In this document: piece after piece, positions 548 through 10,545 of the stretch | How positions within the stretch are numbered: position 1 is the stretch's first letter | Layout of the letters: every line of letters begins with the position of its first letter | Assembly (NCBI RefSeq): GCF_028716865.1 | Contig: NZ_JAQUOY010000019.1 | Span: 1 to 52,203 of the forward strand | Reading direction: 5' to 3' | Origin: Candidatus Methylomirabilis sp. | GTDB lineage: Bacteria; Methylomirabilota; Methylomirabilia; Methylomirabilales; Methylomirabilaceae | Length of the DNA stretch: 52,203 bases | Program-made: the position numbers and the translations under genes | Notes under the pieces: model-generated | The model's input: only the letters and a program-made list of their open reading frames with translations | Database searches by the model: none | What the model was told of the DNA's origin: nothing

Positions 548-1437
548 CGAAATCGATCCGGGTGCAGCAGTCTGGCCAACAGCTCGAGGCCCTCAACGAT
601 CCTGGGCCCAGGACGACTGATCACGTTCGCATCGATCGCAACGATCGTTCCACGGCGCACCGCCCTCAAGCCGCTCCAACCGGGACGTTGAGCCACCAGT
701 TCCGGCGTTTGAGGATGCAAGGGAGCGAGGGCATCGCTCAGGATGATCAGGTCGGGATCGGCACTGATCAGTTCCTCCAGACTGAACTGAGGCCAAGTCG
801 TTCGCGAGTGCGCGGCGACGTTGACCCCACCCGCGAGGCCAATGAGGACATCGATAAAGGAGCCTGGACCGGCTGTAAAAGGGCGACCCGGGTCGCTGCC
901 ATCAAACTCGATAAAGACCTTGGGCTTGGGAGCGTCTCCCACCTTCGCCACGACCGCCGTTACACGCTGCCGCATGGCGCGAACCAGGCTTTCGGCTCGC
1001 GCCTCGGCGTCCACGATCCGCCCCATCAGGAGAATATTTCGGTAGATGTCGTCGAGCGTCCGTGGCGCGAAGATCATCACCCTGATCCCCTGCCGTTCGA
1101 GCGGCAGAAGCGGCTCGGCGCTTCCGTAGGTCGAAAGAATCAGATCCGGACTGAAGCGCACGATCTGCTCCACACTAAGATTAAAAGGAGCAACTCGAGG
1201 TTTAGCTTTTGCGGCAGGCGGAACGTCGCTCCATTGGTCCACGGTTACGATTCGGTCCTCGGCACCCAGGGCGAATAGGATCTCCGTATTGCCCGGCGTC
1301 AAGGTCATAATCCGCTTGGGCGGCCCATCCAGCGTGACGGACCGCCCGGCATCATCGACAACAGTGAGTGGAGCCGCTTCGGCAGGTCCCCACAACAACA
1401 GCACGATCCCGAACAGCAGGATCAACCGGCGTCTCAT
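544..1437 (-). CDS. Periplasmic cobalamin-type binding protein (BtuF-like)
   Basis: A 297-residue ABC-transporter substrate-binding protein of the PF01497 family. It has an N-terminal signal peptide (RRRLILLFGIVLLLWGPAEAA) with no lipobox cysteine, so it should be a free periplasmic protein. Family features follow: PKRIMTLTPGNTEILFALGAEDRIVTVDQWSDVP near the front, the VEQIVRFSPDLIL segment, and the GGVNVAAHSRTTWPQFSLEELISADPDLIIL half. It lies between a TonB receptor and a FecCD permease and overlaps each by 4 bp (ATGA), which marks one translationally coupled uptake operon. The cobalamin assignment comes from the upstream riboswitches; siderophore binding cannot be excluded from sequence alone. 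Confidence 0.9.
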   Translation of the reverse strand: MRRRLILLFGIVLLLWGPAEAAPLTVVDDAGRSVTLDGPPKRIMTLTPGNTEILFALGAEDRIVTVDQWSDVPPAAKAKPRVAPFNLSVEQIVRFSPDLILSTYGSAEPLLPLERQGIRVMIFAPRTLDDIYRNILLMGRIVDAEARAESLVRAMRQRVTAVVAKVGDAPKPKVFIEFDGSDPGRPFTAGPGSFIDVLIGLAGGVNVAAHSRTTWPQFSLEELISADPDLIILSDALAPLHPQTPELVAQRPGWSGLRAVRRGTIVAIDANVISRPGPRIVEGLELLARLLHPDRFR

Positions 1438-3485
1438 AGTGTACCCTTGAGACCAAACAGGGCCGTAATCCCAGGGGTCGAAAAGCCATACACTTGCTGG
1501 AAGTCGTTATCGAAGAGGTTCTGAATCTTTCCGAACAGTGTAAGTTCCCGCAGATGGCGGGCATCCTTCAACAAGGTATACGAGGCCGCAAGATCCACGG
1601 TCTTATAGCCCTCTGCAGTCACCCGTCGAGTTTCGAAGGTGGCCGGATCGGTAAAGATATCCGGCCGATCACCGACGAACGTTGCCGTCAAGCTCGTATG
1701 CAGACGACGCCACACATGGTCGATGGTGAGCGTCCCGGCGTGTCTGGGGCGACGGAGCAGCGGCTGGCCCTTCAGCAAGGCGACGGACCCGATCCCACCA
1801 TCGTCGAGCACTTTGGTATCCAGAAAGGTGTAGGTGCCACCGATCGTCAAGCCGAATCCTGGGCGTACTGTCGTGGCCAGCTCAACCCCCTCCGCCCGCG
1901 CGTTCTGAACATTACAAAAGCTGGCCGGGCAGCCAGGCGTGGGACTAAAAATAAAGGCGATCAAATCATCAAAATGGTTGTGAAAGTAGGTCGCTGAGAA
2001 ATCGGCCAGCCCATGGAGTACCGGCTGGTCAAGGCCAATCTCCCAACTCCTGGTACGTTCCGGTCTCAAATTGCGATTACCGACGACAAACTGACTCCCG
2101 TCGCCAAAGTTCTCAATGAAGCTCGGCTCCTTGATCCCTTTGCCATAAGCGGCTCTAAGCTTTGTCTCTATAAAAGGGATAAGATACGCCGCCGATACAC
2201 GGGGAGTCACCTCAGTCCCGAATGTGCTGTTTCCATCGACCCGGAATCCCGCCGTTAGGAACAGCCGTTTTTTCCAATCAAACTGACCCTGGAGATAGCC
2301 GGCCTTATTATCCCGGCGGGCGTCGTTCGCGCTTAAAGAGGGAAAATCGGTCTCTGTAGCCGCGGCCCGCTGTTCAAACCACTCCCGCTCGAACGCGAAG
2401 CCGACGGTGAATAGACCGGATAGATCGAGAACGGTCGGAGTCGTAAGATTCCAGAAGTAGTCTGCGGAGACGCGGCGCTCCTCATTGGTACTGTGGAAGG
2501 CGGAGAAATCAAGGGGCTGTCCAGTGCGGGGATCGAACGGATCGAACGGATCGTCGAAGACCGACTGATGGCGGTAGAAGCCGATCTGTACCGTCTGCTG
2601 CCACCAGGAGGTGAGCGAGTGATCGCCTTTCGCGCTGAGAACCAATCGCTGCTGATCGCTGGATTGGTTCGGATCAAGCCTGCGCGTATCCCGTGGAAGG
2701 ACCCGTGGCCGATCACCTTCGAACTCAGTGGGAAAATTGAGGTGGCTGTCGCTGTAACGGACGGCAAGACCCAGATCCAGCGCTTTCTCAAGAGCAAAGC
2801 CCACGCGGCCGCTTACAGTCGTGACGCCGAAGTGGTTGTTGATGGGGAGGCTCCCATCGGTGTCGCTTCGGCCCAGCCCCAGCAAGTAGTCAAGTTGCCC
2901 GGCTCCTCCACTGAGATTCAATTTCTCCTCAAAGGTTTTTAGATTTCCACCCGCAAACGAGGCTTCGACACGCGGGGTCCCCTTTCCTCTCTTCGTAAAT
3001 ATCTGAATCACCGACCCCATGGCATCGGAGCCGTACAACGCGCTGTGGGGCCCCCGGACGATCTCGATCCGCTCGATGTTGTCGGTACTCAGGTCGCCGA
3101 AATCGTAGAAGCCGCCGGCGTCGTTGACCTTCACTCCGTCAATCAGCACCAGATTAAAATTGGAGTTGCCGCCTCTTGGAAACGCAGTCACAATGCTGCC
3201 GCGGCTACTCTGTTGCCTGACGCTCAAGCCCGGGACATCCCGGAGAAGGTCCGATACCTGATCGACCTGACGCGCCTCGATCTCCTTTTTCGTAATGACC
3301 GTCACCGATGCAGCAACCTGTTTTACTGGAACTTCGGTTTTGGTCGCCGTCACTACCACCGGCCCAAGCTCTACTGCTTCTTCAGGAGTGAGTCCGAGCA
3401 TCTGCCCCGACGCGCTTCCCAGTCCACAAGCCCACAGAACTGTCACCCACAACCACCCCTTGATCAGACTACTCCAGCATTTCAT
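1434..3485 (-). CDS. TonB-dependent outer-membrane receptor (BtuB-like)
   Basis: Outer-membrane receptor that takes up a bound substrate, here most likely cobalamin, using TonB energy. I start it at the ATG at 3485 because it gives a signal peptide (MKCWSSLIKGWLWVTVLWACG) and has an AAGGGGG ribosome site just upstream; the frame is open further 5' but that part is riboswitch. About 683 residues. Visible parts: the plug domain with VTVITKKEIEARQVDQVSDLLRDVPGL and the RIEIVRGPHSALYGSDAMGSVI segment, then a long beta-barrel ending in VYGFSTPGITALFGLKGTL. This end lacks the usual terminal aromatic residue. It is the first gene after two cobalamin riboswitches, and binding-protein and permease genes follow with 4-bp overlaps. 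Confidence 0.92.
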   Translation of the reverse strand: MKCWSSLIKGWLWVTVLWACGLGSASGQMLGLTPEEAVELGPVVVTATKTEVPVKQVAASVTVITKKEIEARQVDQVSDLLRDVPGLSVRQQSSRGSIVTAFPRGGNSNFNLVLIDGVKVNDAGGFYDFGDLSTDNIERIEIVRGPHSALYGSDAMGSVIQIFTKRGKGTPRVEASFAGGNLKTFEEKLNLSGGAGQLDYLLGLGRSDTDGSLPINNHFGVTTVSGRVGFALEKALDLGLAVRYSDSHLNFPTEFEGDRPRVLPRDTRRLDPNQSSDQQRLVLSAKGDHSLTSWWQQTVQIGFYRHQSVFDDPFDPFDPRTGQPLDFSAFHSTNEERRVSADYFWNLTTPTVLDLSGLFTVGFAFEREWFEQRAAATETDFPSLSANDARRDNKAGYLQGQFDWKKRLFLTAGFRVDGNSTFGTEVTPRVSAAYLIPFIETKLRAAYGKGIKEPSFIENFGDGSQFVVGNRNLRPERTRSWEIGLDQPVLHGLADFSATYFHNHFDDLIAFIFSPTPGCPASFCNVQNARAEGVELATTVRPGFGLTIGGTYTFLDTKVLDDGGIGSVALLKGQPLLRRPRHAGTLTIDHVWRRLHTSLTATFVGDRPDIFTDPATFETRRVTAEGYKTVDLAASYTLLKDARHLRELTLFGKIQNLFDNDFQQVYGFSTPGITALFGLKGTL

Positions 3486-3530
3486 CGTTCGCCCCCTTAT
3501 CCGCGAAGGTGGTGCGTTCTTGTCCTCCCC

Positions 3531-3715
3531 CTGGACAGGTCTCCTGACTCGTGGATCGTTGCCGACCCTGCGCCTTCCCATCCTTCGGCAAGCTCAGGAC
3601 AGTGGCGTTATGCAGAGCGACTCCCCACTCACAGTGGCGGGACCGTGCTGGCTTTGCCCTGCCGCAGCAAGCGGCCGGCACACCAGCTTCCCTTACATCC
3701 AGGGGCGTTCAATTC
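3531..3715 (-). promoter_or_regulatory. Cobalamin riboswitch 1 (receptor-proximal)
   Basis: Read on the minus strand, this leader shows the cobalamin riboswitch signature: AAGGGAAGCTGGTGTG, then GGTCCCGCCACTGT, a variable arm, GGGAAGGCGCAGG, and finally the B12 box GAGTCAGGAGACCTGTCC, which ends 46 bp before the receptor ATG. The ribosome site lies just past the B12 box, so translational control is likely. Boundaries are approximate. The variable arm contains a segment like the REP-type repeats seen elsewhere in the window. Confidence 0.9.
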
Positions 3716-3813
3716 GTCCGAACAGTTACCTGATCGTATAGGCTTCTCTCACCCCCCTTCAGGCACTCTATCCATCCCTACCAAAGCAAAGATCCGACCC
3801 ACATCTCCTCCGC

Positions 3814-3851: not shown

Positions 3852-3943
3852 CTCATTCCCAAACCGAACGTTAAACCTGCGCCGCGATCAACCCGGTACG
3901 CGACAAGGCCGCCCTTCCCCTCGGAAGGTTATCAGCACCTCGG

Positions 3944-4170
3944 GGCTGGGCAGGTCTCCTGGCTCGCGGCTTATCTTACTCTCTGCGCCTTCCCAGTGAA
4001 AAGACGAGGGATAGGATAAGCGCCCTAACCCTGGTCTTTCACCAGTGGCGTTCAGCAGATTTCAACGCCGCTTACAGTTGCGGGGCAGCAACGGCTTGGC
4101 CCTCTACACTCCGAGTACAAGGCTTCACCGTTTTCCCTGTTTCCGCTATCGGCGGACCCAGCCCCACCCG
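3944..4170 (-). promoter_or_regulatory. Cobalamin riboswitch 2 (promoter-proximal)
   Basis: A second, separate cobalamin aptamer on the minus strand. It contains CAGGGAAAACGGTG, GCTGCCCCGCAACTGTAAGCGG, an extended peripheral hairpin region, CTGGGAAGGCGCAG and the B12 box GAGCCAGGAGACCTGCCC at 3944-3961. It follows a good sigma-70-type promoter and precedes an intrinsic terminator, so it probably acts by transcription attenuation. Edges are approximate. Confidence 0.9.
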
Positions 4171-4190
4171 ACTTTGGCGGGACAAGGTCT

Positions 4191-10179: not shown

Positions 10180-10545
10180 TTAGTAAGTAACCGATCGATC
10201 ATACTCCATGAGCAGTTGGGCGTATCGTTTGATGTCGATCTTCTCGACGCCTGGTACACGCTTGAGGTCTTCGTCCAAGACCCCCCGGGTCTGGGCTCAC
10301 CCCCCTCAGAGATAGACCGGGATCTGGTGATCTACGGCGAACTGAAATAACTCTTCGAGTGGCGGCAGCCCGTACGGTTTTACATGCTGCCGCAACTCCG
10401 GCTTGATCAGGACCGTGGCATCGAGCGCCAACACAATGCCGACATCGATCCCCGATTCCTTCGCCCCCTTCGCCACAAAGAACGGCATCGCCGCCCGCGT
10501 TGAGTTATCGTACCCGTGGGTCGCTGTGATCAATAACTTTGCCAT
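10180..10545 (-). CDS. DsrE-family protein with two in-frame TGA codons: probable UxxU selenoprotein
   Basis: Starting at the ATG at 10545 (ribosome site AGGGAGGGG), the frame reads MAKLLITATHGYDNSTRAAM and continues as a DsrE/DsrF-like small sulfur-relay fold up to HQIPVYL, where it meets TGA (10306-10308). Two Gly codons later comes a second TGA (10297-10299). The same frame then continues as AQTRGVLDEDLKRVPGVEKI and on to YDRSVTY and TAA at 10180. Family members that I recall end with PVYxCGxCAxxRG...DRVVTY, so both TGA codons fall exactly on the conserved CxxC cysteines. Read as selenocysteine, the product is 121 residues with U80-G-G-U83. TGA is a normal stop elsewhere in the window. The alternative is a pseudogene with two nonsense changes, which would be an unlikely coincidence. 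Confidence 0.75.
10264..10295 (-). promoter_or_regulatory. Two overlapping SECIS-like hairpins after the TGA codons
   Basis: Hairpin 1 pairs CCCAGACC (10288-10295) with GGUCUUGG (10275-10282), one mismatch, loop CGGGG; its loop starts 19 nt after the first TGA. Hairpin 2 pairs GGGGUCUU (10277-10284) with AAGACCUC (10264-10271), one G-U, loop GGACG; its loop starts 21 nt after the second TGA. Both loops carry G in the first two positions and sit in the 16-37 nt window described for bacterial SECIS elements. The two share bases and cannot form together. Confidence 0.6.

Follow-up and report, generated by a model that had tools for sequence, protein, structure and literature searches.

Overlapping alternative SECIS-like hairpins, apparently an older one and one tied to a second selenocysteine codon, in a putative DsrE-like UxxU selenoprotein gene of Candidatus Methylomirabilis

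According to the accessible parts of PMC13188914, bacterial SECIS elements (bSECIS) are modelled with a G in the first two positions of the apical loop, and for most elements this loop is located 16-37 nt from the UGA. DsrE-like selenoproteins (PF02635) are listed as UxxC proteins in those portions of PMC1088965, PMC2398784, PMC9312934 and PMC13188914 that were available. Selenoproteins of the UxxU kind are also known, namely Prx-like, FmdB-like and metal-binding proteins, the last represented by UxxU_metal_bind (NF041115; available sections of PMC13188914). A pair of alternative SECIS hairpins serving two codons is not described in the accessible text of the literature searched, which took in the smaller part of the subscription papers, nor in the passages available from, among others, PMC4513850 and PMC3834832. 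How two Sec codons two residues apart are decoded, with a hairpin that the ribosome unwinds, is likewise left unexplained in that literature as far as its text was accessible.

The gene described here was found in a stretch of 52,203 nt from a methane-oxidiser relative, Candidatus Methylomirabilis sp. (contig NZ_JAQUOY010000019.1), which was analysed as a whole and is referred to as the window. The relevant features are the following.

10180..10545, minus strand: putative DsrE-like selenoprotein gene, ATG at 10545-10543, TAA at 10182-10180, with two in-frame TGAs (UGGU)
10306..10308, minus strand: TGA1, putative Sec codon 1, TGA in the 50 distinct homologues compared (18 UxxU, 32 UxxC), which were themselves chosen for having TGA1
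10297..10299, minus strand: TGA2, putative Sec codon 2, replaced by a Cys codon in one-TGA homologues; of the phylum's 95 genomes, 19 have homologues with both TGAs
10275..10295, minus strand: hairpin 1, a SECIS-like stem-loop and apparently the older of the two, its conserved core pairing 10292-10288 to 10282-10278 and its loop being CGNGN or GNG
10264..10284, minus strand: hairpin 2, a SECIS-like stem-loop formed in the two-TGA clade, with GGAYG as its loop
10263..10308, minus strand: possible lower stem UGAGG (10308-10304) / CCUCA (10267-10263), enclosing hairpin 1 and competing with hairpin 2

With the DsrE-like selenoproteins the window gene shares the fold family and the position of the first Sec. 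As described in the available parts of the sources above, these proteins are UxxC, whereas the window gene specifies UGGU, the second active-site Cys being also replaced by Sec. Of the 50 distinct homologues with TGA1, 32 contain the UxxC motif. The motif is absent from the window protein, which is a UxxU variant and not a described member of the DsrE-like group. Like the known UxxU selenoproteins, it has two Sec codons two residues apart. The hairpins resemble bSECIS elements, in terms of the accessible account in PMC13188914, in being small coding-region stem-loops just after a UGA, with a loop G and a spacing of 16-37 nt. Unlike in that model, two stem-loops share one strand here, and their registers are set to UGAs nine nucleotides apart.

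The start codon was picked by conservation, beginning at MA(K/R)LLITAT, and inspection of the sequence upstream of the ATG revealed the purine-rich stretch AGGGAGGGG. Read through both TGAs, the product is ...IPVYL-U-G-G-U-AQTRGVLDEDL... around the motif and contains a DsrE/DsrF domain (PF02635, 53.2 bits at a cut-off of 22.7, E 4e-14). This frame is kept in relatives, where homology runs on past both TGAs. Proteins of relatives are 87-89% identical and carry the labels Candidatus Methylomirabilis or Methylomirabilota; NCBIfam contains no family for the DsrE-like protein. An AlphaFold2 model with a mean pLDDT of 94 has 3mc3 (TM 0.82 by query length), YchN (1jx7) and DsrEFH (2hy5) as its nearest solved structures, and in this model Sec positions 83 and 86 are located at a strand end and in the following helix. 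Judged from the family, the protein may function in redox reactions or sulfur transfer.

The same genome encodes SelA (604 bits), SelB (381 bits), SelD (400 bits) and tRNA-Sec (67 bits), each scoring above the curated cut-off, and by gene content the host is Sec-decoding. Both UGAs of the DsrE-like gene are probably read as selenocysteine. The selD gene itself (L175, C3:103676-104599 of this genome) contains a TGA, SelD being a selenoprotein, and the codon is followed by two consecutive hairpins. The second of these exposes a GUG loop 33 nt from the TGA, similar to the loop of hairpin 1 in most DsrE-like relatives.

Hairpin 1 begins 10 nt past TGA1. Its arms, CC(C)AGACCC and GGGUCU(U)GG, flank GGG and form eight of nine pairs (-10.0 kcal/mol), and its loop is 19 nt from TGA1 and 10 nt from TGA2. 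Hairpin 2 begins 12 nt past TGA2, with the arms GGGGUCUU and AAGACCUC around GGACG, all eight pairs formed (-10.3 kcal/mol), and a loop 20 nt from TGA2 and 29 nt from TGA1. Both stem-loops lie in coding sequence after an in-frame UGA, and both show the loop G of the bSECIS model: GGG or CGGGG in hairpin 1, with GUG and GAG also found in clade relatives, and GGACG or GGAUG in hairpin 2. Spacings of 16-37 nt are obtained for hairpin 1 with TGA1 and for hairpin 2 with either TGA, while hairpin 1 is too close to TGA2. Since both hairpins use the same ten nucleotides, 10284-10275, they are mutually exclusive. Thus, two SECIS-like hairpins as located in a preliminary description of the region agree with sequence and folding, including their exclusivity, the 19 nt between TGA1 and the first loop, and a G in the first two places of each loop. 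The 21 nt given there for TGA2 and the second loop are correct as to register, but 20 nt lie in between and the loop is the 21st nucleotide.

Compared with dinucleotide shuffles (n = 200), the segment of hairpin 2 stands out (z -3.1, 1 of 200 as good), while hairpin 1 is ordinary (z -0.6, 56 of 200 as good), as are the surrounding regions of 56 nt (z 0.12) and 86 nt (z 1.04). In the 33 ORFs of the window (11,770 codons), 7.5% of the codons precede a 6-bp stem and 1.6% an 8-bp stem when the loop rule and a distance of 16-25 nt are applied; two codons three apart followed by stems of at least six and at least eight bp, respectively, account for 0.37%. Because stems of this quality follow so many codons, one sequence alone constitutes modest evidence. 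Rfam at gathering thresholds revealed no RNA family at the hairpin site, and folding of the whole region of the single sequence was dropped as uninformative. The weight of the case rests on the relatives rather than on the single sequence.

The phylum is represented by 95 genomes, and homologues were detected in 56 of them. The 19 genomes with both TGAs comprise 17 with one type of gene, distributed over seven genera, and two with another type (G027, G017). After identical segments had been counted once (56 reduced to 50), 50 distinct homologues with TGA1 remained: 16 main UxxU sequences, referred to as the clade, two other UxxU sequences (L027, L028), and 32 UxxC sequences. One of them (L081) was left out of alignment A1 because of an indel, giving 49 aligned sequences, and four (L074, L081, L083, L088), being fragments or having an indel, were left out of alignment A3. 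In homologues in which CSPC replaces the Sec motifs, the hairpin stretch GCC-CGN-GGG-GTC is absent. A protein tree placed the 16 main UxxU sequences in one group (support 0.62), with L027 and L028 outside of it, apart from each other and near the midpoint root; the number of UxxU gains is uncertain because the protein is short. When the search was widened to 388 genomes, 18 of those outside the phylum yielded matches, and in none of these were there two TGAs. In the phyla to which two of these 18 belong, 7 of 22 genomes (2 of 4 and 5 of 18) harbor one-TGA homologues, with E values up to 1e-20. These seven keep the core GCC-CGN of hairpin 1, and their nine-pair register is poor.

Comparative analysis indicates that hairpin 1 is old in the family and under selection. 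Over the 49 aligned sequences its covariation score is 0.309, against 0.142 (sd 0.013) after shuffling, with 0 of 500 shuffles as high and no more than 0.127 after sliding of the partner strand. Changes on both sides occur at six of the nine pairs. For example, pair 10292-10278 is U-A in 19 sequences, A-U in 18, G-C in seven, C-G in two, U-G in one and unpaired in two, and pair 10291-10279 is G-C in 43, C-G in three, A-U and G-U in one each, and unpaired in one. The five core pairs are intact in all 16 clade sequences and in 31 of 32 UxxC sequences; L027 has four of them and L028 two. The innermost pair, 10287-10283, is broken in L030, L035 and L066, so that the functional loop may be the five nucleotides CGNGN. 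Hairpin 1 is taken as the SECIS of TGA1 by descent, because the one-TGA proteins have it.

Within the clade, the data suggest, to a modest degree, that hairpin 1 is still under selection. On the clade gene tree, upstream synonymous changes average 2.62 at 2-fold sites (n = 32) and 4.23 at 4-fold sites (n = 30), and a single one of the 30 4-fold sites shows no more than one change. Of the third positions in the 5' arm of the core, 10291 is unchanged and 10288 changed once, to a base still able to pair. Together this is one change where about 6.9 are expected (Poisson about 0.008, 10288 alone about 0.08), for sites chosen after the structure had been looked at. Most weight falls on 10288, and 10291 is weak, since two of the four other Gln codons of the gene are invariant as well. 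The loop codon CGN (10285) and the outer position 10294 changed four times each, and L016 shows two wobble pairs in hairpin 1.

Hairpin 2 presents a different picture. All eight pairs are formed in 15 of the 16 distinct clade sequences and seven in the remaining one, versus a complete hairpin in none of the 32 UxxC sequences. The outer pairs are often found in the latter (GGGGUC/GACCUC), yet never all eight, and the two inner pairs are formed together in a single UxxC sequence, L088; a coding artefact as the source of the outer pairs was rejected on these grounds. A10270, which pairs in hairpin 2 and not in hairpin 1, is present in 16 of 16 clade sequences and 0 of 32 UxxC sequences, and 10296-10264 folds by consensus into hairpin 2 in the clade and into hairpin 1 in 31 UxxC sequences.

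Within the clade, hairpin 2 is invariant beyond coding need. No changes have occurred at the third positions 10282, 10279, 10276, 10270, 10267 and 10264, versus five in the loop codon (GAY, 10273). The codons GGG GTC TTG ... GAA GAC CTC are thus without synonymous change, one sequence having GCA for GAA. Over codons 8-14, synonymous diversity averages 0.07, compared to 0.46 over 73 other eligible codons, and 0 of 53 upstream stretches of seven eligible codons are as low. The Leu codon in the stem is TTG in 16 of 16 sequences, a codon used for 7% and 3% of the Leu residues in two ORF pools. The preliminary description had looked to compensatory changes in relatives for support. These exist for hairpin 1; for hairpin 2 there is strict invariance in the clade and no convincing covariation (0.112 versus 0.098 shuffled, 16 of 500 as high, and 0.138 for a slide of -1; 49 sequences), as expected if this hairpin exists in one clade only. 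A shorter stem of similar kind beats about 98% of recodings in 5 of 31 UxxC sequences (L023, L024, L045, L049, L061); therefore, part of hairpin 2 may predate TGA2. Since the complete hairpin is found only together with TGA2, it goes with the second Sec codon and, by this co-occurrence, probably serves it.

The clade sequences could form a further structure. The lower stem UGAGG/CCUCA is complete, with five of five pairs, in all 16 clade sequences and in 17 of the 32 UxxC sequences, and the clade consensus fold over 66 nt combines it with hairpin 1. The codons GAC and CTC (10267, 10264) could therefore be held by the lower stem rather than by hairpin 2. For 13 of the 16 clade sequences, unaided folding of 10296-10261 predicts hairpin 2 to be more stable than hairpin 1. 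When the segment from TGA1 to +48 was folded, eight sequences were mainly in each form; extension to +60 shifted this to four with mainly hairpin 1 and twelve with mainly hairpin 2. With the 9 nt after TGA1 occluded, the mean probability is 0.08 or 0.24 for hairpin 1 and 0.92 or 0.74 for hairpin 2, depending on segment length. As hairpin 2 is favoured unaided, SelB or the order of folding would have to hold hairpin 1. Occlusion of the 9 nt after TGA2 (10296-10288) gives 0.98-0.99 for hairpin 2 and 0.00 for hairpin 1. The predicted energies leave both forms within reach.

Other genes of the phylum with two TGAs were also considered. Presence of hairpin 2 in every UxxU protein is ruled out by L027 and L028, both from one genus, which have another hairpin instead: the stem CCGACCA-GGAUC/U-UGGUCGG (loop GGATC/GGATT) 26 nt after TGA2. 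In each sequence, 4% of synonymous recodings attain the energy of this stem, and the two synonymous differences between L027 and L028 keep or improve pairing. The preliminary description had regarded loss of both stems with retention of both TGAs as an argument against its proposal. L028 comes close to this, with four of nine pairs of hairpin 1 and four of eight of hairpin 2, but contains the strong third hairpin. In both UxxU types examined, the second TGA is thus accompanied by a strong downstream hairpin.

In five of the 95 genomes, UxxU_metal_bind (NF041115) is found over the family cut-off. Among 40 MerP-like loci (20 + 20), 24 fit a motif filter and were counted; the 16 left out include L114, L115 and L117, in which the match is free of TGA. 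All 21 parsed MerP-like UxxU sequences have a stem of at least five of six pairs with a G-first loop (GGA in 19), located 32 and 23 nt after the TGAs. Hence, these NF041115-like proteins have one canonical G-loop hairpin for both codons, while the window gene has two alternative ones. The same stem is present 32 nt after the sole TGA in two of three parsed one-TGA relatives, both from one genus, with a C-G pair replaced by U-A. Given these stems and the selD hairpin, distances of about 30 nt appear to be tolerated in this phylum. A second stem upstream (UGACC/GGUCA, or GGUC/GGCC) has a distance or loop outside the bSECIS rule. In 18 of the 21 MerP-like UxxU sequences (loci L098-L116, L155-L161), TGA2 is contained in the UGACC/GGUCA stem just before the G-loop hairpin; this stem could hide the second UGA or alternate with the G-loop hairpin. 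Many TGA-containing metal-binding domain proteins were noticed in the phylum, several of them on one contig (G006:C48, G022:C95), in line with the large selenoproteome reported, in the available parts of PMC13188914, for a Methylomirabilota MAG.

In transcription attenuators, the position of the ribosome decides which of two overlapping hairpins is formed. Their output is termination of transcription, whereas the output proposed here would be delivery of SelB to successive codons. According to this proposal, the gene would encode a small redox protein of the DsrE/DsrF fold with two selenocysteines, U-G-G-U. Hairpin 1, the old SECIS of the family, would serve TGA1. When the second active-site Cys became Sec, hairpin 2 would have been built in register with TGA2, the 3' arm of hairpin 1 doubling as the 5' arm of the new stem. 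While TGA1 occupies the A site, intact hairpin 1 about 10 nt ahead would bring the SelB-Sec-tRNA complex. Three codons later the ribosome would have taken in most of the 5' arm of hairpin 1, and the freed 3' arm (10284-10277) would pair with 10271-10264, so that a SelB complex on the loop of hairpin 2 could decode TGA2. Such a handover, with hairpin 1 serving TGA1, is plausible from the comparisons; what we infer is that SelB binds to each hairpin, that the clade continues to use hairpin 1, that the two hairpins divide the labour, and that the ribosome drives the switch. A relay in which hairpin 1 serves TGA1 and hands over to hairpin 2 for TGA2 as the ribosome advances has, in our estimation, just about an even chance of being correct. 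That hairpins of similar stability act in turn, the advance of three codons destroying the first SECIS and thereby creating the second, is put forward more tentatively.

The main competitor is one shared SECIS: hairpin 2 would serve both TGAs, and hairpin 1 would be an inherited remnant whose 3' arm survives through the need of hairpin 2 for it. This is a real possibility, if on balance somewhat doubtful. Its distances to both TGAs (29 and 20 nt) are in the range of 16-37 nt, and its greater stability in 13 of 16 clade sequences points the same way. The assignment of one hairpin to each TGA in the preliminary description holds as far as register is concerned. Its strict reading is weakened by the fit of hairpin 2 to TGA1 as well, by this stability, and by the MerP-like UxxU family, which has one canonical hairpin for both codons. 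That family, its one-TGA members with the stem at 32 nt and a C-G to U-A replacement, and the selD hairpin at 33 nt all favour sharing, as does the loss of the outer hairpin 1 pair, 10294-10276, in four of the 16 clade sequences. The intact core of hairpin 1 throughout the clade speaks against a remnant, as do the single change at 10291 and 10288, with the reservations given above for post hoc sites and the Gln position, and the pair gained in L022 and L044 through a change from Q to K.

Alternatively, an fdhF-like single SECIS, hairpin 1 on the lower stem, could serve TGA1, with TGA2 read weakly or by the same SelB delivery; the lower stem would hold the sequence of hairpin 2, which would be a by-product. 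The pairing of the lower stem throughout the clade and the 66-nt consensus fold are consistent with this. We consider it unlikely, since the lower stem explains neither A10270 nor the 8-bp match of hairpin 2 and is also intact in about half of the one-TGA homologues (17 of 32), and hairpin 1, starting 1 nt after TGA2, would be inside the ribosome during decoding of TGA2. Finally, the pairs could be forced by conserved amino acids in GC-rich coding sequence, and the TGAs could be stops or sequencing errors. The frequency of 6-bp stems in window ORFs, the ordinary shuffling values of hairpin 1 and the whole region, and the energy of hairpin 2, attained in 3-9% of synonymous recoding trials per clade sequence, would fit such an explanation. 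It is nevertheless very improbable in view of both TGAs in 19 genomes with homology continuing beyond them, covariation of hairpin 1 unmatched in 500 shuffles, and a lack of synonymous change over codons 8-14 that no upstream stretch equals.

In the favoured reading, the handover from hairpin 1 to hairpin 2, the gene may represent a rare case of a moving ribosome switching one signal for another. The overlapping alternative SECIS-like hairpins themselves, one apparently older and the other tied to the second Sec codon, make the gene family a natural experiment, with one- and two-TGA homologues in one phylum. The complete second hairpin occurs only with the second TGA, and whether each codon needs a SECIS of its own lends itself to a clear mutational test.

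In one genome, a UxxU (L021) and a UxxC (L061) DsrE-like gene are present about 1.8 kb apart on opposite strands (contig G057:C164, 871-1242 and 3049-3390). Elsewhere in the window, two tandem cobalamin riboswitches were detected with Rfam on the minus strand (3517-3717 and 3932-4176; 93 and 107 bits), at and just before the start of an ORF of 715 aa (1434..3581) on the same strand.
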